NCBI RefSeq assembly: GCF_021191635.1
Contig: NZ_JAIWPR010000006.1
Coordinates: 124,001-188,000, forward strand
Reading direction: 5' to 3'
Length of the DNA stretch: 64,000 bases
Source of the DNA: Alterluteimonas quercicellularis
Lineage (GTDB): Bacteria; Pseudomonadota; Gammaproteobacteria; Xanthomonadales; Xanthomonadaceae
Made by a program: the position numbers and the translations under genes. The notes under the pieces are model-generated. The model saw nothing but the letters and a program-made list of their open reading frames with translations. It was not told where the DNA came from and did no database searches. Positions 11,880-35,837 of this stretch are shown piece by piece (the stretch's first letter is position 1; each line of letters opens with the position of its first letter).

Positions 11880-12551
11880 TCAGCCCTGCACCGCCAGCGC
11901 GGGATCGGGATGCGCGGACGCGCCCGCCGCCGACGCGGCGGGACGGCGGCTGCGCGGGTCGAGCGTGTCCATCAGCCGGATCGCCTCGCTCTCCATGTCG
12001 ACGATGTAGCCGTCGATGCGGGCGCGGAAATGGCGGTGGAACATCAGCGCCGGCACCGCCACCACCATGCCGGTGGCCGCGCACACCAGCGCCTTGCCGA
12101 TGCCGCCGGCGAGCTGGTTGACGTCGCCGACGCCGTGGTCCATCACCCCCAGGAACATCTGGATCATGCCGACCACGGTGCCGAACAGGCCCAGCAGCGG
12201 GCCGGCGGCTGCGATCGTGCCGAGGGTGTTGAGGTAGCGCTCCATGCGGAAGACGATGTGGCGGCCGGTGTCCTCGATGCGCTCGCGGATCTCCTCGCGC
12301 GGGCGCTGGCGCACGTCCAGCGCCGCGGCCAGCAGCGCGCCCAGCGGCGAGGTGTTGCGAAGCGAGTCGATGTGCGCCGGGTCCAGCCGGCCGCGCGCGG
12401 CCCAGGCGCGGACCTCCTCGCCCAGGCCCGGCGGCAGCACCGCCCGGCGGCGCAGCGTCCAGCAACGCTCCACGATGATCGCCAGCCCTGCCGCCGACAG
12501 CAGCAGCAGCGGGATCATCGGCCAGCCGCCGGCCTTGACCAGTTCCAGCAC
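11880..12551 (-). CDS. exbB: MotA/TolQ/ExbB proton-channel family protein
   Basis: A 223-aa inner-membrane protein with three hydrophobic segments (about 10-30, 105-130 and 150-175). It has the ExbB/TolQ motif GLFGTVVGMIQMF and the third-helix stretch GIGKALVCAATGMVVAVPAL. It is the first gene of the minus-strand operon that runs to pgsA. It is transcribed divergently from the methyltransferase at 12723 across a 171-nt spacer that must hold both promoters; no convincing box could be picked by eye. Confidence 0.93.
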   Translation of the reverse strand: MLELVKAGGWPMIPLLLLSAAGLAIIVERCWTLRRRAVLPPGLGEEVRAWAARGRLDPAHIDSLRNTSPLGALLAAALDVRQRPREEIRERIEDTGRHIVFRMERYLNTLGTIAAAGPLLGLFGTVVGMIQMFLGVMDHGVGDVNQLAGGIGKALVCAATGMVVAVPALMFHRHFRARIDGYIVDMESEAIRLMDTLDPRSRRPAASAAGASAHPDPALAVQG

Positions 12552-27856: not shown

Positions 27857-28554
27857 ACGCGCAGGCGCCCGCCCTCGCCTACGACTGGGTGCTGTTCGAC
27901 GCCGACGACACCCTGTTCCACTTCGACGCCCTGCAGGGCCTGCAGCGCACCTTCGCCCGACACGGCCTCGCCTTCGGCCACGCCGAGTACGCCGCCTTCC
28001 AGGCGGTGAACCGGCCGCTGTGGGTGGACTACCAGCACGGACGCCTCAGCGCCACCGAGCTCAAGCGCCGGCGCTTCCACGACTGGGCCGCGCGCATCGG
28101 CCTGCACCCCGACGAGCTCAACCGCGACTTCCTCGCCAGCATGGTCGAGGCCTGCCCGCCGCTGGACGGCGTGACCGCCCTGCTCGACGCCCTGCACGGC
28201 CGCGCCCGGCTGGGCATCGTCACCAACGGCTTCGTCGACTTGCAGGAAGCCCGCCTGCGCCATACCGGCCTGCGCGAACGCTTCGAGGTGCTGGTCATTT
28301 CCGAACAGGTCGGCGTCGCCAAGCCCCACCCCGACATCTTCCGCCACGCCCTGCGCGAGATGGGCGAGCCCGCGCCCGCGCGCGTGCTAATGGTCGGCGA
28401 CAACCCGCACTCCGACATCGCCGGCGGCCACGCCATGGGCTTCGACACCTGCTGGTACAACCCCGGCGGATTGCCGCGCCCCGACGGCGTGGCGATGCGC
28501 TACGAGGTCGCGTCGCACGGCGAACTGGCGCGGCTGCTGCTGGGCGGAGGCTGA
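27853..28554 (+). CDS. yjjG: YjjG-type pyrimidine 5'-nucleotidase (HAD family)
   Basis: A 233-aa HAD phosphatase that dephosphorylates pyrimidine and non-canonical nucleoside monophosphates and so cleanses the pool. Motif I is FDADDTL with nucleophile Asp16 and Asp18, motif II is IVTNGF, motif III is the Lys in GVAKPHP, and motif IV is MVGDNPHSDI. The start is the GTG at 27853, whose GTGA overlaps the mfd stop codon. Confidence 0.92.
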   Translation: MNAQAPALAYDWVLFDADDTLFHFDALQGLQRTFARHGLAFGHAEYAAFQAVNRPLWVDYQHGRLSATELKRRRFHDWAARIGLHPDELNRDFLASMVEACPPLDGVTALLDALHGRARLGIVTNGFVDLQEARLRHTGLRERFEVLVISEQVGVAKPHPDIFRHALREMGEPAPARVLMVGDNPHSDIAGGHAMGFDTCWYNPGGLPRPDGVAMRYEVASHGELARLLLGGG

Positions 28555-28571
28555 GCCGTCCAGGCGCTCAC

Positions 28572-28636
28572 GCAGGAGCGCGCTCGCGCGACCGGATTCG
28601 CGGGACAAGCGCTGTCGCGCGCAAGCGCGCTCCTAC
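28572..28636. repeat. Inverted pair of 23-bp repeats between converging genes
   Basis: Forward copy 28572-28592 (2 nt short) and reverse copy 28614-28636 are separated by 21 nt, between the ends of yjjG and the LprI-like gene. The long hairpin could terminate both transcripts. Confidence 0.88.
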
Positions 28637-28670
28637 AGGGGACGGCGATCCCATCCACGCCGGATCTGCG

Positions 28671-29063
28671 CTAGCCGCCGTCCAGCTCGCGCAATTCCAG
28701 CGCCCTCGCCGAATTCAGGGTCATCGGGCAGTAGTCGTACATCGGCGAGCCGATATGCGAGCCGGCCAGTGCGCAGTGCGCGTTCCGATACGTCAACCAG
28801 GCCTTCTGCGAGGCCTCGAACTTGTCGGCATCCGCCGGATCGCTCGACCGCAGCCTCGCGTGGATCGACCGGTAGCGCTGCTCGATCTCCTCTTTCGCCC
28901 GCTCCGACACCCGGGAAGCGCAGACCTGGACGACCGCGTTGTTGATCGGGCCGGCGGCCTCCACGCAATCGTCGTAGGCGGCCGAATACTCGGAAGACGA
29001 CTGCGCGCTGGCCGCCTGCACGGGGGCACAAAGCGCGATGCACAGCAACCACGTGGATTTCAT
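28671..29063 (-). CDS. LprI-like (DUF1311) exported protein
   Basis: A 130-aa protein with a signal peptide (LLCIALCAPVQAASA, cleavage near 20). A DUF1311/LprI-type domain follows, with cysteines in DDCVEAA, VQVCASR, NAHCAL and YDYCPM and the family stretch ASQKAWLTYRNAHCAL. Mycobacterial LprI inhibits lysozyme, but most members have no assigned function. Secreted to the periplasm or beyond. It is the first gene of the accessory region. Confidence 0.82.
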   Translation of the reverse strand: MKSTWLLCIALCAPVQAASAQSSSEYSAAYDDCVEAAGPINNAVVQVCASRVSERAKEEIEQRYRSIHARLRSSDPADADKFEASQKAWLTYRNAHCALAGSHIGSPMYDYCPMTLNSARALELRELDGG

Positions 29064-29334
29064 TCGCAGTCTCCCGTTCCCGCTCGATGCAGACCCGATG
29101 CCAGGCCCGTTCCGGCAGCCCTTGGCCGGGATACTAGTCCAGATCCAACCCGTGGGATCGGGACGACAATCCGTTCCGCCCACCGCCGGCGTCCATCTCG
29201 GCGACGACCGACGATTCCGCGCCGCCAGCCCGATCCGTGCTTTACTCCACTCCGGGCATGTCTTTCGAGTCCGAGTGCCCTCATCGCAGGGCTCGACTCG
29301 GGCGTCAGACCCTCGCCTGCCACACCGAACGCTA

Positions 29335-29769
29335 ATGACGCTCCCATCGCATCCGGTCCTCGATCCCGCGCTCGTGGGCACCTATCCGGCGGCCGCAAAA
29401 GCGGGCGGCGGCTATGTATGGGACGCAGTCCTCGAGTATCGCGTCTGGTGCCATCCGGAACGCGGCGCGCCAGACGTCGCCGACGGCAGCGACTACTACC
29501 GCCCCTTCGAAACGTATCAAGAGGCGCTTGCGTTCTCGCAGGAGATGCCCGGCACGGAAGAGCCGCTCGCCCTGATCCTGCAGGAGGAGTACATAGACGA
29601 GCCCGAGCCTGGCGAGTACCTGCACGTCAAGGAGCGCCGCGTGGCGGAATGGCCGGTATCGTTCCTCTCGCGCCCGCGCCGGACGCCCCGGACCATTCCG
29701 GACTTCATGGCGCCGGACGCGCCGGCGAACAGGCTGGATATCCTTCGTGGCTTCCGTGGCTTCGCCTAG
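29335..29769 (+). CDS. Conserved hypothetical protein, unknown function
   Basis: A 144-aa cytoplasmic-looking protein without signal peptide or helices. It starts MTLPSHPVLDPALVGTYPAA and has the well-spaced motifs YRVWCHPERG, DYYRPFETYQEALAFS, EEPLALILQEEY and KERRVAEWPVSFLSRPRRTP. Similar proteins are sometimes labelled GCN5-related in annotations, but no acetyl-CoA motif is seen here. ATG at 29335 is chosen; the frame is open further upstream without a better start. The preceding 271 nt hold nothing recognisable. Confidence 0.75.
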   Translation: MTLPSHPVLDPALVGTYPAAAKAGGGYVWDAVLEYRVWCHPERGAPDVADGSDYYRPFETYQEALAFSQEMPGTEEPLALILQEEYIDEPEPGEYLHVKERRVAEWPVSFLSRPRRTPRTIPDFMAPDAPANRLDILRGFRGFA

Positions 29770-29794
29770 CACGCTCCCGACGGCAGGACGCGCC

Positions 29795-30142
29795 ATGAGG
29801 ATCGGCTGGGCATTGGCCGTCCTGGTCTGGGTCGTCCCCCTCGGCTCGCTGCTCGCCTGCCCGCACGACCTGCACGGCTTCTCGACGTGCTCCTCTGCCG
29901 CGCAGATCGGGCGCACTCTGAGTTCCTACCTGGTGGCCCCCGGGGTGTGGTTCGGCTCTGTCGTCTCCGGTGCATTATCGAGTGATCCATACGCCGGAGC
30001 GTCCCTTCCCGCATACCTGTTCGGGGTCCTCTCCTGGTTGGCGCTTCTTTCAGGTGCCATCATTCTCCTGTGCACGCGCTTGTCCGCACACAAGTCGTCG
30101 GCGCCCAGCCATCCGAAAGCCGACGACGCCCCGAGGCGATGA
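29795..30142 (+). CDS. Small membrane protein, unknown function
   Basis: A 115-aa protein with two predicted membrane segments (IGWALAVLVWVVPLGSLLAC near the N-terminus and YLFGVLSWLALLSGAIILLC near 75-95) and a short polar C-terminus. Two cysteines lie just after the first helix. ATG at 29795 begins directly before the first helix. It lies 25 nt after the previous gene and may share its transcript. No family recognised. Confidence 0.6.
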   Translation: MRIGWALAVLVWVVPLGSLLACPHDLHGFSTCSSAAQIGRTLSSYLVAPGVWFGSVVSGALSSDPYAGASLPAYLFGVLSWLALLSGAIILLCTRLSAHKSSAPSHPKADDAPRR

Positions 30143-30207
30143 TCCATTCGGATATCGAGCAGATGGGATTGGTCGTCGCCGCCAACGCTCCAATGGGATC
30201 GAGACAT

Positions 30208-30732
30208 ATGAGCCGTTCCATCCTCGCCGTTGCCGTCCTCGGCCTCATGCTGGTGGCGAGCCCGCTTCTTGGGCAGAACGTTCCAGGGCCCGCCACATCC
30301 ACAGAGCTTCCCGAGGTCGCCTTGCCGCCTGAGCTGGACCGCGTGCTTCGCGACTACGAGCGCGCATGGCGCGCGGCCGACGCGTCAGCCCTCGCGTCGC
30401 TGTTCGCGGAGGACGGTTTCGTGCTGCAAGGCAATCGCCCGCCGATCCGCGGGCGCCCGGCCATCCAGGCAGCCTACGAGGGCCAAGGGGGCGGCTCGTT
30501 GCGGCTGCGCGCCCTCGCCTTCGCCGCCGAAGACACGATCGCCTACATCGTCGGCGGATACGGTTACGGCGATGCGCCCGGCGACGCAGGCAAGTTCACC
30601 CTCACCTTACGGCGTGCGCCGGGTGCGCCCTGGCTGATCTTCTCCGACATGGACAACCCGAACGCGCCGCCGCGGCAACGCAGCGCACCGGACACCCCTC
30701 CATCAGCAGAGCTTCCAACGACGGGACACTGA
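30208..30732 (+). CDS. Exported SnoaL-like/NTF2-fold protein
   Basis: A 174-aa protein with a signal peptide (LAVAVLGLMLVASPLLGQ, cleavage near 21). An NTF2-like (DUF4440/SnoaL) domain follows: ERAWRAADASALASLFAEDGFVLQ, then RPPIRGRPAIQAAYEG, then APWLIFSDMDNPNAPP. Such domains bind small molecules or act as hydrolases, and the function here is unknown. ATG at 30208 is chosen for the signal peptide, although the frame is open to 30070. Confidence 0.72.
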   Translation: MSRSILAVAVLGLMLVASPLLGQNVPGPATSTELPEVALPPELDRVLRDYERAWRAADASALASLFAEDGFVLQGNRPPIRGRPAIQAAYEGQGGGSLRLRALAFAAEDTIAYIVGGYGYGDAPGDAGKFTLTLRRAPGAPWLIFSDMDNPNAPPRQRSAPDTPPSAELPTTGH

Positions 30733-30854
30733 TGCCGCGGGCATTTCGCGGACAAAGCCGCAGGCTCTTTTGCAAGCAGCGCGACCAGTGGACTCAACGA
30801 ACGAGTGTGGCAAGATTCCAGCATTGATGAGCTGCCGAAATGCATGGGGCGGCA

Positions 30855-30912
30855 GCCTGACAATTCACTCAGACCGGCACTATTTGCGGTGCGGCTTAAT
30901 TCGGCGTTAGAG
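30855..30912 (+). repeat. attC-like integron recombination site 1
   Basis: A 58-nt site bounded by GCCTGAC (R'' position, one base from RYYYAAC) and GTTAGAG (R'). The inner arms contain AATTCACTCAGACCGGCAC and GGTGCGGCTTAATTCGGC, which pair imperfectly. This is the same plan as the classic aadA-type attC (AATTCATTCAAGCCGAC...GCGGCTTAACTC). The next cassette gene starts 10 nt downstream. Confidence 0.78.
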
Positions 30913-30921
30913 CGACAAGAC

Positions 30922-31767
30922 ATGCCAAGCGCGACAATCAAGATCTATTTGCCTCATGGGGATCCGAAAAGACTCCGCACAGGCGAAATTTCCAACTGGT
31001 CAGGAAAGGCGATTGCTGGCCCACGTACCGAGCTTGACCAGATCCTCAAGCGGGATGAATCGTCTAGCGCGGGCATCTACATCTTATCTGGCATAGATCC
31101 ATTCACGGGAAGTCCAGCCGCTTACATCGGCGAGGCGGAGTCGATCAAGGATCGAATCAAGCGACACCTGTCAAAGGATTTCTGGTCCCATCTCGTATTC
31201 TTCATAAGCAAGGATGAGAACCTGACAAAAGCACATGTACGCTTTCTGGAAGGTCGTCTCATCGCGCTGGCCAAGGAAGCCAAGCGTGCTGATCTCACTA
31301 ATTCGCAGGCAAGCAGTTCCAAGCTACCAGAATCCGACATAGCAGACATGGAAATCTTCTTGGAACGCATCGAGCAGTTGCTTCCGGCGCTAGGTGTGGA
31401 TGTTCTCGTACCGGTAACGTCACCAGCAGGAACGCCCAAAGAAGCGCAATTGCTCTATTGTGAGGTCAATGGACTCAAGGCGATCGCTCGCCTTACCCCG
31501 AATGGCATCGTAGTGCTCAAAGGCTCTCAGGCCGCAGCCAACATCAGGCCATCTGCTGCCGACTACCCCTGGATTATCAATTCTCGGGAACAGCTCGTGA
31601 AAGACGGAACACTGGTGCGAAGCAAAGAGGCCCTGGTGTTTCAGGAAGATCATGAGTTCTCAAGCCCTAGTGCTGCCGCAGCCATCGTTCACGGCGGCAC
31701 AGCAAATGGGCGTACGGCGTGGAAAGATGAGAAGGGTCGAACCCTAAAGGCACTCGACTCCGCCTAG
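30922..31767 (+). CDS. GIY-YIG nuclease-family protein with C-terminal DUF4357 (integron cassette gene)
   Basis: A 281-aa protein with a GIY-YIG fold (GIYIL at 51-55, AYIGEAES at 68-75, Arg79, and a Glu in FLEGRLIALA). A DUF4357 ending follows (GGTANGRTAWKDEKGRTL). GIY-YIG/DUF4357 proteins are common in defence islands and cassette arrays, usually without a tested function. GC content is clearly lower than in the chromosomal neighbours, and many codons end in A or T. It lies between two attC-like sites, its stop codon being inside the second, which is the form of a complete gene cassette. ATG at 30922 (MPSATIKIYL) is used, not the far upstream frame opening. Confidence 0.82.
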   Translation: MPSATIKIYLPHGDPKRLRTGEISNWSGKAIAGPRTELDQILKRDESSSAGIYILSGIDPFTGSPAAYIGEAESIKDRIKRHLSKDFWSHLVFFISKDENLTKAHVRFLEGRLIALAKEAKRADLTNSQASSSKLPESDIADMEIFLERIEQLLPALGVDVLVPVTSPAGTPKEAQLLYCEVNGLKAIARLTPNGIVVLKGSQAAANIRPSAADYPWIINSREQLVKDGTLVRSKEALVFQEDHEFSSPSAAAAIVHGGTANGRTAWKDEKGRTLKALDSA

Positions 31768-31821
31768 CAATTCATTCGAGCCGATGCCGCTTCGCGAAGC
31801 AGCCTAGCTCGCTCGTTATGC
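31762..31821 (+). repeat. attC-like integron recombination site 2
   Basis: A 60-nt site from GCCTAGC to GTTATGC. Inner arms AATTCATTCGAGCCGATGC and GCAGCCTAGCTCGCTC surround CGCTTCGCG. Its left part is nearly identical to the aadA-type attC. It starts within the GIY-YIG stop codon and ends 19 nt before the next gene. Confidence 0.82.
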
Positions 31822-31839
31822 CGCACAGGAGACATTATC

Positions 31840-32358
31840 GTGAGCAGGGAAGATCTGATTGCTGTCGGGGCCCGAATCTTCGCGGTGTTCCTGTTGGTGA
31901 CAGTCGCGCGCTCGTTTCCGAGCGCTACAGCGCTCCTTGACCAGCCGGATCCGAAACCGTCCCTGGTGCTCGTTGGAACCGTACTGGCGTCCAGTATCGC
32001 CGTCTGCGCTTTCCTGTGGTTCTTTCCGCTCACCATCGCAAGAAAGCTGCTGCCCGTGATGAGCGAGCCGCGCTCGGAAACCGCCTTGAGCGGCTCGTTA
32101 GCGTTATCCGTCGGGCTTACGCTTCTGGGCGTGTGGGTCCTGGCCTATGCGCTGCCCGACGCGATCTACTGGACTACCTTGTTCCTGCTCACCCGCCGGG
32201 CCGATGCCATGTACTTTACATGGGGCCCCGAGCAGATCGCCGGCATCGTCACCACCCTTGCGGAGCTGCTTCTTGCCGCCTGGTTGATCTTCGGGAGTTC
32301 GGGTATCAAGCGACTCATTCTCAGGTACCGTCGCGGCGCACTCGAAGACGTGATCTGA
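31840..32358 (+). CDS. Four-helix membrane protein (integron cassette gene), unknown function
   Basis: A 172-aa protein with about four membrane helices (LIAVGARIFAVFLLVTVA, LVLVGTVLASSIAVCAFLWF, LALSVGLTLLGVWVLAYAL, IAGIVTTLAELLLAAWLIF) and a basic C-terminus. The GTG at 31840 is the start and lies 19 nt after attC site 2. No family recognised. Base composition is intermediate. It and the next gene (4 nt later) look like a two-gene cassette. Confidence 0.72.
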   Translation: MSREDLIAVGARIFAVFLLVTVARSFPSATALLDQPDPKPSLVLVGTVLASSIAVCAFLWFFPLTIARKLLPVMSEPRSETALSGSLALSVGLTLLGVWVLAYALPDAIYWTTLFLLTRRADAMYFTWGPEQIAGIVTTLAELLLAAWLIFGSSGIKRLILRYRRGALEDVI

Positions 32359-32362
32359 CCCC

Positions 32363-32989
32363 GTGGCGATAAGAAGAACCGCCACTTTCGTTCATTGGAA
32401 CTTCTTCCTTGCCCTGGAGGAAGATCTCGATCGCCTCGCGAGGTTCGTCGACCTCAGCGGAAACGATAGAACCTACTCGATCGAAATAGGCAGATTGTTG
32501 CTTAGCGCCTGCGCAGAGACTGATGTCGTACTCAAGCAACTTGTGAGAGAGCTAGACCCAACGGCAAGCCCGAACAGGCTTGGCGAATACTTCGAATCGA
32601 TCTCACGCCACCTGCCGAATTTTCGTAAGTTCCACGCGATCCTTCCGAGATACGGGGTAAATCTGAAACCATGGCGAGACTGGCGCGAAAATCGAGCACC
32701 TGGCTGGTGGTCGGCGCACAATAAGGTCAAGCATCAACGCCACGAACATTTCGATAAGGCCAACCTAAAGAACTGCCTGAATTCGATGGCCGGCCTGTAC
32801 GCCGCCACTCTCCATCTTTATGCGGCGGAAGCTGAGCAAGCACTGATTCCAGGGCAACCGAGAATCTTTAGCTGCGGTCCGCTACACAGCGCAGGATCCG
32901 TACTCGCTGGACAAGGTATTATCCTGCGCTACCAAGGTCTAACTGCCAACGATTCATTGGAGCCGACACAGCCTCGCAACGGGAACTAG
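32363..32989 (+). CDS. Hypothetical protein, unknown function (integron cassette gene)
   Basis: A 208-aa helical, soluble protein without signal peptide. Noticeable motifs are LLLSACAETDVVLKQL, a block WWSAHNKVKHQRHEHF and LNSMAGLYAATLHLYAAEAEQ. The His/Lys-rich block resembles some HEPN-like proteins, but the Rx4-6H motif of RNase HEPN domains is not clearly present, so this is only a suggestion. The GTG at 32363 follows the previous stop by 4 nt. The last 17 codons run into the attC-like sequence at 32937, as cassette genes often do. GC is low relative to neighbours. Confidence 0.65.
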   Translation: MAIRRTATFVHWNFFLALEEDLDRLARFVDLSGNDRTYSIEIGRLLLSACAETDVVLKQLVRELDPTASPNRLGEYFESISRHLPNFRKFHAILPRYGVNLKPWRDWRENRAPGWWSAHNKVKHQRHEHFDKANLKNCLNSMAGLYAATLHLYAAEAEQALIPGQPRIFSCGPLHSAGSVLAGQGIILRYQGLTANDSLEPTQPRNGN

Positions 32990-32990
32990 C
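32937..32990 (+). repeat. Degraded attC-like site 3
   Basis: A perfect R'' core GTCTAAC, then AACGATTCATTGGAGCCGAC, matches the left half of attC sites. The right half is eroded (CTCGCAACGGGAACTAGCC) and lacks a clean GTT core. It is probably a decayed end of the array. Confidence 0.55.
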
Positions 32991-32993
32991 CGA

Positions 32994-33338
32994 ATGTCCG
33001 CCTGCATGGAATTGATCGCTGCCCTTGCGATTCTCGCGATCGCGCAATCTGCACCCGCCGCGACCCAGTGCGAAATCAAGGGGGACGCCGCCCATTGGGC
33101 CTACGACGCCTGCTTCTGGCAGTTCGAGACGGACGACGACCTGCATCCCGGCGTCGTCGCCTGCGCCGAGCGAAACCTGGCCCTCGTGCGATCGGAGGGC
33201 GCCTGCCCGGCAACGCGCATCTTCAAGAGCCGCATCTGCAAACTCGTACAGCAGACCGGGGATCGCCTCGCTTCTTTCGAGGCGTGCATGGCCGATCCGT
33301 CCGTGGAGGGATCGACCGTCAGGAATGGCGGGCTCTGA
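32994..33338 (+). CDS. Small exported Cys-rich protein, unknown function
   Basis: A 114-aa protein with a signal peptide (ELIAALAILAIAQSAPA, cleavage near 23). The mature part has six cysteines in the order TQCEI, DACFWQF, VACAERN, GACPAT, RICKLV and EACMAD, which suggests three disulfide bonds. ATG at 32994 lies just after the decayed attC; ATG at 33006 is an alternative. No family recognised. Confidence 0.65.
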   Translation: MSACMELIAALAILAIAQSAPAATQCEIKGDAAHWAYDACFWQFETDDDLHPGVVACAERNLALVRSEGACPATRIFKSRICKLVQQTGDRLASFEACMADPSVEGSTVRNGGL

Positions 33339-33441
33339 CTGCGTCGCGATCCATCCGCACGGCTCCGCTGCGCGGCCTCGGGCTTGGACGACGAATGGAG
33401 GGCCGGCGACCGCATCATTGAGGATCGCGCAGCCCTGCCGC

Positions 33442-34815
33442 CTAGCGCCGCAGCGCTCCCCGCCCCCGCATCGCCGCCTCGTCGTCGAGCCAGTTGGCGC
33501 CCTTGTTTCTGAGGAAGAACACGTAGACGAACAGCGATGCCGCGATCACGATGGTCGCGTAGACCACGAAGGCGACCACCTGATCGGTGCGCAGCGCGGC
33601 CTGGTAGAGCAGCGGCGCGGTGCCGCCGAAGGCGGAGTTCGCCAGCGCGTAGCCCAGGCCGACGCCCAGGGCGCGGACATGGGTGGGGAACAGTTCGGCC
33701 TTCACCACGGCGTTGATGGAGGTGTAGCCGGTCAGGATCACGAAGCCCACGGTGAGGATGGCGAAGGCGGCCAGCCAGTCGGTCTGCCGGGGCAGCGCCA
33801 GCACCAGGAACCAGGTGTAGAGCACGCCGCCGATGCCGAAGAACACCAGCAGGCTCTTGCGGCCGACGAGGTCGGACAGCCAGCCGCCGACCGGCTGCAT
33901 GACCATCAGCATCGTCAGCGCGACGAGGTTGATGATGGTGCCGGTCATGACGTCGTCGCCGGCGAAGGCGCTCTGGATCATCTTCGGGCCGTTGACGGAA
34001 TAGGTATAGAACGCGACGGTGCCGCCGGCGGTGACCAGGAAGCACAGCAGCAGCGGCCGCCACTGGCGCACGAACAGCTCGCGCAGCGAGCCCGATGCCT
34101 GGGCACCGCCGCGGCGCGCGGCCTCGATCGATTCGGATCCGAGCGACTCGTCCATCGTGCGGCGCAGCCAGAACACCACGATCGCGGCAATGCCGCCGAG
34201 GCCGAAGGCGACGCGCCAGCCCCAGGCCGAGATCTGCGAGACGTCGAGGAACTGCAGCATGAGCAGCAGCGTCAGCTGCGCCAGCACGTGCCCGCCCACG
34301 AGCGTGACGTAGTGGAACGAGGACAGGAAGCCGCGCCGGCCCGGGATCGCGGCTTCCGACATGTAGGTCGCGCTGGTGCCGTACTCGCCGCCGGTGGCGA
34401 AGCCCTGCACCAGGCGGGCCAGGAGCAGGATCGCGGGGGCGGCGACGCCGATCGTGCCGACCGTGGGCGTGATGGCGATGACGAACGAACACGCCGCCAT
34501 CAGCGTCACCGAGACCGTCAGCGCGAGCCGGCGGCCGTAGCGGTCGGCGAAACGGCCGAAGTACCAGGCGCCGATCGGCCGCATCAGGAAGGTCATGGCG
34601 AAGATCGCCCAGACGAAGAGCGTGGCGTTCTTGTCCTCGGGCGAGAAGAACTGCGATTCGAAGTAGGCCGCGAACACCGAGTAGACGTAGACGTCGTACC
34701 ACTCGACGAGGTTGCCGGCCGAGCCCTTGAGCGTGTTGGACACCGAACGGCGCAGGCTGCCGGGCGCGGCGGCGACGGAGACTGCGGTGGGCGCGGCGGG
34801 CGTCGATGAGGTCAT
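33442..34815 (-). CDS. MHS-family MFS transporter (KgtP/dicarboxylate type)
   Basis: A 457-aa symporter of the metabolite:H+ family. It has the N-terminal motif LKGSAGNLVEWYDVYVYS, the MFS loop FGRFADRYGRRLAL and GFATGGEYGTSATYMSEA, all typical of alpha-ketoglutarate/shikimate/proline-betaine permeases. Twelve helices are expected. KgtP-like specificity for 2-oxoglutarate is plausible from the motifs but cannot be fixed. Monocistronic; it lies downstream of lolD on the same strand behind a block of four repeats. Confidence 0.88.
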   Translation of the reverse strand: MTSSTPAAPTAVSVAAAPGSLRRSVSNTLKGSAGNLVEWYDVYVYSVFAAYFESQFFSPEDKNATLFVWAIFAMTFLMRPIGAWYFGRFADRYGRRLALTVSVTLMAACSFVIAITPTVGTIGVAAPAILLLARLVQGFATGGEYGTSATYMSEAAIPGRRGFLSSFHYVTLVGGHVLAQLTLLLMLQFLDVSQISAWGWRVAFGLGGIAAIVVFWLRRTMDESLGSESIEAARRGGAQASGSLRELFVRQWRPLLLCFLVTAGGTVAFYTYSVNGPKMIQSAFAGDDVMTGTIINLVALTMLMVMQPVGGWLSDLVGRKSLLVFFGIGGVLYTWFLVLALPRQTDWLAAFAILTVGFVILTGYTSINAVVKAELFPTHVRALGVGLGYALANSAFGGTAPLLYQAALRTDQVVAFVVYATIVIAASLFVYVFFLRNKGANWLDDEAAMRGRGALRR

Positions 34816-34879
34816 GCAGGGGCGGCCTGGCTCGTGGCGAGCCCGCAGTATAGGACCCCGTGCCGGGGCAACCGCCCCT

Positions 34880-35055
34880 GCAGGAGCGCGCTCTCGCGCG
34901 ACCGGAGGCGCGGGGCAAGACCCGTCGCGCGCAAGCGCGCTCCTACGGAGGTGGATGCTTGCCGGAGCCGCAACACTGCAACCCGCACTGCAGGAGCGCG
35001 CTCGCGCGCGACCGGGTTTCGCGGGAAAGCCCGTCGCGCGCGAGCGTGCTCCTAC
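34880..35055. repeat. Two inverted pairs of 23-bp repeats after lolD
   Basis: Copies lie at 34880-34902 (+), 34924-34946 (-), 34990-35012 (+, exact core) and 35033-35055 (-). Each pair spans about 66 nt. The 20-nt centre of the second pair begins CGGGTTTCGC and ends GGAAAGCCC, so it extends the stem. The last copy supplies the lolD stop codon (TAG at 35052-35054). Confidence 0.9.
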
Positions 35056-35837
35056 ACTTCCGAGGGGGCGACCTCGCGCAGCTTGCCTTCGTGCAGCTCC
35101 AGCACCCGGTCCAGACGCCGGGCGAGGTCGCGGTCGTGGGTGACCAGGACCAGGCTGGTGCGCTGGGCGCGGTTGAGGTCCAGCATCAGCTCGAACACGG
35201 TGCCGGCGGTGCGGTCGTCGAGGTTGCCGGTGGGCTCGTCGCCCAGGACGCAGGCGGGATGGTTGACCAGGGCGCGGGCGACCGCGGCGCGCTGGCGCTC
35301 GCCGCCGGACAGCTCGCCGGGCTTGTGCTGCAGGCGATGGCCCAGGCCGACGCTCTCCAGCAGCGCGCGCGCCTTGGGCTCGACCTCGGCGATGCCGGGG
35401 CTGCGGGCGCGGCGCCCGCCTTCGACCGGCTGCCCGGCCAGCAGCGCCGGCAGCATCACGTTCTCCAGCGCGGTGAACTCGGGCAGCAGGTGGTGGAACT
35501 GGTAGACGAAGCCCAGCGCGCGGTTGCGCAGCGCACCGCGCGCGGCGTCGGAGAGCGCGCTCATCCGGTGGCCGGCGACGAAGACCTCGCCTGCGGTAGG
35601 CACGTCCAGCCCGCCCAGCAGATGCAGCAGGGTGCTCTTGCCGGCACCGGAGGCGCCGATGATGGCCACCGTCTCGCCGGCGTACACGGCGAAGTCCAGC
35701 CCGGCGAACACCGGCGTGTTGAGCTTGCCCTCGCGGTAGGTCTTGCCCAGCCCCTCGGCCCGGATGACCGCGTCCTGTGCGCGCTCCTGCACCTGCGAAT
35801 CCCGAATCCCGAATCCCGAATCCCGGCTCTCACTCAT
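35052..35837 (-). CDS. lolD: Lipoprotein-releasing system ATP-binding protein
   Basis: LolD drives release of outer-membrane lipoproteins to LolA. The 261-aa ATPase has Walker [10 protein letters not shown], the signature [15 protein letters not shown] and Walker [14 protein letters not shown]. The homologous part starts near residue 25 ([14 protein letters not shown]). The preceding residues ([15 protein letters not shown]) are encoded by four tandem CGAATCC heptamers and look like a repeat-derived extension. The ATG at 35837 overlaps lolC by 8 nt. An internal start cannot be excluded. The stop codon comes from a 23-bp repeat. Confidence 0.93.
35796..35823. repeat. Four tandem CGAATCC heptamers inside the lolD 5' end
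   Basis: Four perfect 7-bp units, followed by CGGCTCT, lie near the lolD/lolC junction. On the coding strand they encode the [10 protein letters not shown] peptide. The flank resembles the arms of the repeat between sdhA and sdhB (38727-38833). Confidence 0.85.

Follow-up and report, generated by a model that had tools for sequence, protein, structure and literature searches.

Six integron-type gene cassettes without an integrase: a probable decayed CALIN between mfd and an MFS transporter gene

Organization of the array

The window analysed here, a 64-kb stretch (G000:C55:124001-188000, G000 being the source genome) of a 4.5-Mb draft assembly with 109 contigs and a completeness of 100, contains six consecutive genes, all on the plus strand, which extend over approximately 29795-33338 and, given the position of the window within its contig, lie away from any contig end. 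They encode, in order, a small protein (29795-30142), a DUF4440/SnoaL-like protein (30208-30732; Pfam DUF4440, 3.5e-9), a GIY-YIG/DUF4357 nuclease-like protein (30922-31767), a hydrophobic protein that appears membrane-like by eye (31840-32358), a further protein (32363-32989) and a second small protein (32994-33338). The start of the first gene was set by analogy with its relative (the listed open reading frame begins at 29747), and that of the DUF4440 gene by analogy with congener G046, the searches having used 30154-30729. Two attC sites on the plus strand (30855-30912 and 31762-31821) flank the GIY-YIG gene, and the left core of the second contains the stop codon of this gene (31765-31767), in agreement with an earlier note on this DNA which had described stop codons running into the next site. 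No array protein was named by NCBIfam above its cut-offs, and Rfam at gathering scores returned only two tRNAs in the 64-kb window.

The GC content falls from ~0.70 to 0.55-0.57 at 31-33 kb. The array had been described as made of low-GC genes, which holds for part of it (54% for 30922-31764 and 32363-32986; 62% for 31840-32355) but not for the other genes, which have 66-69% GC (29747-30139, the DUF4440 gene and 32994-33335); outside the array, the MFS and HAD genes have 69% and 72% respectively. The HAD gene and the first cassette are separated by a minus-strand open reading frame (28671-29381), antisense to the array, whose 236-residue product contains an LprI domain at residues 147-230 (Pfam 1.3e-11). 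Dispersed repeats, REP-like by eye, were also observed on both sides of the array (28572-28637, 34868-34946 and 34978-35056).

attC sites in the window

Sites were scored with R1, a covariance model trained on 26 attC sites of congeners, all from loci with an integrase; its structure consisted of the outer and inner stems. A strict regular expression picked 30 distinct sites, of which two from the source genome itself and two from the G003 locus were left out of the training; sites chosen in this way are biased towards intact ones and, as R1 is tuned to the clade, distant attC types would be missed. R1 matched both full sites at exactly the coordinates proposed earlier by inspection (35.4 bits, E 7.7e-8 for 30855-30912; 37.0 bits, E 2.4e-8 for 31762-31821). 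These were the two best of the five matches (E<=10) in the 64 kb, so that failure to be hit by a covariance model, an outcome that would have spoken against attC, was not what this clade-specific model of our own returned. The third match, a possible decayed attC at 29251-29310 on the plus strand, is weak and may be due to chance, scoring 15.0 bits (E 0.15) across the window and reaching E 0.012 when 5 kb were searched without filters; an in-frame ATG (29335) lies 24 bases past its end. Both full sites are real but belong to the weaker attC sites of the genome, ranking 16th and 18th of at least 21 R1 matches at E<=1 (a lower bound, since 150 of 9515 first-look candidates were scored). Their core boxes read GCCTAGC/GTTATGC (6/7 outer pairs) and GCCTGAC/GTTAGAG (5/7), and the GTT right cores previously reported are present at both.

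Neither of the two sites retains the bottom-strand core hairpin of a functional attC. Folded as single-stranded DNA, their bottom strands were no better than shuffled sequences (z of +0.41 for 30855-30912 and +0.39 for 31762-31821), compared with z values of -8.49 to -2.55 for the 26 training sites. The 60 positions of site 31762-31821 also include 13 that depart from the consensus, with 10 of these falling in columns 25-60; training sites have a median of 3.5 such mismatches and at most 8. Given that IntI is described, in a passage of PMC8618304, as binding the folded bottom strand of attC, we infer from this loss of fold that both sites would be poor or dead substrates for the integrase. Loss of fold is not unique to the window array, as it is partial in the others that we scored: among model-picked sites of the same genome, z was <=-2 in 4/6 on contig C44, 1/5 on C5, 2/6 on C3 and 0/2 in the window, and among model-picked sites of congeners in 3/6 in G046 (a set without two weaker R1 matches) and 3/4 in G003.

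A third site had been proposed as half decayed (32937-32990, plus strand), and only its left half stood up. At 32944, attC columns 1-36 scored 18.9 bits, the second-best place in the window for these columns and a score attained by none of 200 first-order random 3.4-kb sequences (plus strand only). The covariance model as a whole gave no match to the half site in 28500-33500, even with filters off. Further downstream, the window and the L175 relative of the last gene share GGCGGGCTCT at the stop of that gene (32994-33338), followed in the window by what looks by eye like a blurred attC. This likeness is suggestive of a further attC trace at the 3' end of the gene, where R1 gave no match with filters off.

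Relatives of the cassette-type genes

Each of the six gene families has at least one relative bracketed by attC sites, adjoining sites in the relatives' loci being scored by R1 at E<1e-3. We regard the six consecutive same-strand genes as cassette-type because of these bracketed relatives and because R1 gave no match at E<=1 in 24 control loci totalling 103 kb, where relatives of the flanking MFS (23 loci) or HAD (1 locus) gene lie. The control loci all belong to the genus, while four of the array genes have relatives drawn from the wider family or from more distant groups. For several families the bracketed state is a minority one, being found in 1/12 relatives of gene 31840-32358, 1/7 of the DUF4440 gene, 1/3 of 32363-32989, 2/5 of 32994-33338 and 3/62 loci of the GIY-YIG gene, many of whose loci without attC come from distant bacteria to whose attC types R1 is not tuned.

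For the first gene (29795-30142), the single relative found among 198 family genomes (33% identity) has attC on both sides (L181:1433-1492 and 1811-1868). The DUF4440 gene is present in 8 of 52 genomes of the genus, its own included, and had been taken for the left chromosomal neighbour of the array (as a SnoaL-like gene). This assignment is revised here: it is of cassette type, and in congener G046 it lies between two attC sites (L024:4141-4200 and L024:3506-3564). Of the remaining relatives, that in G003 has attC upstream only and five have none adjoining (in L027 there is a weak partial match beside the gene, E 0.11). The idea that this gene might mark the corresponding chromosomal locus in congeners was also considered and rejected, as none of the seven relatives has a match to mfd, HAD, MFS or lol in its surroundings (three of the seven stretches reach or begin at a contig end); this lack of shared neighbours is what led us to recognize it as a cassette.

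Relatives of the GIY-YIG gene lie between attC sites in Luteimonas arsenica, Thermomonas beijingensis and Pseudoxanthomonas sp. J31, while attC occurs at the 3' end only in two loci (L094 and L101) and upstream only in one (L099). Gene 31840-32358 has its bracketed relative in L164 (attC at 1430-1489 and 2028-2087). A second copy of this gene, 39% identical, was observed in the source genome (G000:C85:2572-3057; L173), with no attC in the stretch examined. No attC was found with R1, filters off, between 31840-32358 and 32363-32989 in the window. The latter gene has three relatives among the 198 genomes, with attC on both sides in L157, upstream in L158 and not adjoining in L159. The last gene, 32994-33338, has five: those in L175 (60% identity; interrupted by an internal stop) and L179 (28%) are bracketed by attC, that in L177 has a site upstream only, and those in L176 and L178 have none; the array, which was thought to end at the half site, hence runs on to 32994-33335.

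Reading frames are free of stops in the five genes tested against relatives (all but 32994-33338). The dN/dS values obtained (0.19 and 0.29 for the DUF4440 gene, 0.19 and 0.19 for 31840-32355, and 0.35 for 29795-30139) show constraint across the whole divergence, including the time before the array froze, and not constraint since then; none is given for the GIY-YIG gene and 32363-32989 because dS was saturated.

The same locus in related genomes

The genome with the most similar MFS gene, G016 (96%), shares the gene order lolC-lolD-MFS-mfd with the window; its MFS-mfd interval is ~385 bp against 5,585 bp here, and there is no attC in 19.9 kb of the locus and no integrase match in the genome. 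The locus is thus variable among relatives, and not constant throughout the family as would be expected of something other than cassettes, which supports the earlier reading of a cassette array without an integrase. G016 has no HAD gene at this place, so that insertion here and deletion there are indistinguishable, and a deletion in G016 is a possible origin of its short interval. Congener G001 retains the mfd-HAD arrangement and carries a lone attC beside lolD (L063:16059-16118; 58.6 bits), within the mfd-lolD interval. This is perhaps an independent event, and the mfd-lolD interval may receive cassettes repeatedly.

Integrase, attI and other arrays in the genome

No integron integrase was detected in the draft genome at the TIGR02249 cut-off or E<=1e-60, neither in the window, as the earlier note had it, nor elsewhere; with 109 contigs, a gap may conceal one. 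At E<=1e-3, four matches that score far under the cut-off fall in two frames, which read by eye as XerC/XerD-like, and were rejected as integrases. Across the genus, an integrase above cut-off was found in 40 of the 52 genomes searched and the attC motif in all 52. Congener G018 has two such integrases (C10:62574-63515 and C45:246370-247314).

The attC motif (<=3 mismatches) has 12 matches in the source genome (six on C44, three on C5, two on C3 and one in the window), and the reversed motif, used as a control, has none genome-wide. Three further arrays without an integrase are found in this genome, all on the minus strand, on C44, C5 and C3, and the genome-wide R1 matches include single attC-like ones on C30 (G000:C30:39748-39785; 38.3 bits) and C43 (G000:C43:17301-17361; 32.1 bits). 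On C5, the stretch before the first cassette (L014, ~11900-12400) shares 69% identity over 353 aligned columns with the intI start and attI side of G001. At the protein level an intI remnant was not significant there (best overlapping tblastn E 0.08); from its DNA likeness, C5 looks like a dead integron. Array C44 (L013, 10260-12960) combines six attC sites with an attI-like leader; the alignment of this leader (198 columns, 70%) covers the attI side and no part of intI. Among 30 intI loci compared, parts of the C5 leader were matched in eight and parts of the C44 leader in four (E<=1e-4). Array C3 (L015, 7619-9863) also has six attC sites, and no other compared locus matched the sequence preceding the first of them. 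As a candidate attI beside the first full site of the window array, 30733-30880 was rejected: unlike the C5 and C44 leaders, it has no match other than itself in the window and loci L001-L060.

Origin and fate of the array

We consider it very likely that the array is a decayed CALIN, comprising about six chromosomal integron gene cassettes without an integrase and without a recognizable attI. Two attC sites in the same orientation lie ~0.9 kb apart, the genes belong to families found as cassettes elsewhere, and both intI and, in the stretch 30733-30880, attI were searched for and not found. Under this reading, the cassettes would have been placed by IntI acting on folded attC while the lineage, or a donor, had an active integron; IntI would subsequently have been lost, after which the attC sites would have drifted. 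The array would now be immobile, with its reading frames persisting. With the integrase apparently gone and the docking sites decayed, the genes look frozen in place.

How the cassettes arrived is a separate matter, and off-target capture, in which IntI acting in trans inserted them at a secondary attG-like site that never was an integron platform, is a route of origin compatible with a decayed CALIN. We give it somewhat less than an even chance. The missing attI-like leader at 30733-30880 and the short interval at the G016 locus would agree with such an insertion, which a passage of PMC8618304 names as one proposed route to CALINs; against it, a run of about six same-strand cassettes would exceed the yield of one event, and rearrangement of a larger array would yield a fragment of the same appearance. 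Whichever route applies, the decayed CALIN might still be mobilizable by an IntI from another element or strain, since both sites retain GTT right cores and five to six of seven outer core pairs, and parts of the Xanthomonas study (PMC12444791) indicate that CALINs can be moved in trans. This appears improbable, as neither site folds beyond its shuffles, in contrast to every training site, and it is the folded bottom strand that IntI is said to bind (PMC8618304, in the passage cited above). There is hardly any likelihood left, finally, that the motifs are chance matches or members of some other repeat family, for instance REP elements. Although short dispersed repeats do flank the array (28572-28637 and 34868-35056), such an origin is opposed by the E-values of the two sites in the window, by the lack of any reversed-motif match in the genome and by the position of the sites at the ends of a GIY-YIG gene that is attC-bracketed in the three bacteria named above.

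Relation to known integrons and CALINs

This kind of element is already known, and no new mechanism emerges from the array. IntegronFinder 2.0 sets the threshold for a CALIN at two attC sites, and CALINs are common, with 2961 counted against 2760 complete integrons (both from parts of PMC9024848). The window array resembles a CALIN by that definition in having two attC sites of the same orientation that enclose a gene, with no integrase in the vicinity. It differs in that its sites are low-scoring and fold-less and that most cassette-type genes have no detectable attC, so that an attC search would report fewer cassettes than appear to be present. Loss of intI with stable arrays has been described in Xanthomonas, and the portions of that study considered here (PMC12444791) share with our case the widespread intI in relatives, its lineage-specific loss and CALINs elsewhere on the chromosome. 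The present array, however, belongs to another genus and to a locus between mfd and MFS near lolCD, and its genome has two separate attI-like leaders without a full intI.

What is added here is a detailed instance of cassette-type genes that persist although most are stripped of their attC marks, a clear example of the fixation of integron cargo in a chromosome through integrase loss and attC decay, with the genes remaining. As about six cassette-type genes are accompanied by only two detectable attC sites, surveys based on attC would miss such cassettes. We tentatively suggest, while holding it to be rather less probable than not, that, once an integrase is lost, the attC sites erode but the captured genes survive intact and turn into regular genes of the chromosome, and that attC surveys overlook a large hidden class of domesticated cassettes. 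No literature on immobilized CALINs was found, in a search too narrow for attC-less cassette relics to be called unreported. Where attC searches see little, such relics can be traced by checking, for adjacent genes, if attC sites flank their relatives at other loci.

The nuclease-like cargo gene

If the suggestion is true, the hidden domesticated cassettes include a candidate anti-phage gene. The GIY-YIG/DUF4357 protein matches PADLOC family PDC-S14 over residues 3-279 (2e-102) and was the only one of the four array proteins searched with PADLOC (out of six) to give a match. According to a section of PMC10855318, PDC-S14 is a putative antiphage family that overlaps with GAO_29 and is still uncharacterized; it is spread in susceptible strains (57% of 14) and is described there as not linked to resistance. 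The protein differs from PDC-S14 in being carried here as an integron cassette, with a defence activity that is putative.

Its DUF4357 domain scores well above the Pfam cut-off (1.9e-22; 79.4 bits against 38.4), and the GIY-YIG domain falls below it (15.9 against 22.6 bits; E 0.016). Y53, Y68, R78, E110 and N127, which we take to be the active-site residues of GIY-YIG nucleases (the two tyrosines being those of GIY/YIG), are invariant in all 10 aligned members. Judged by its families, the protein is probably a nuclease-type defence candidate. A tblastn search of plasmids with this protein returned 51 records, all with less than 60% identity.
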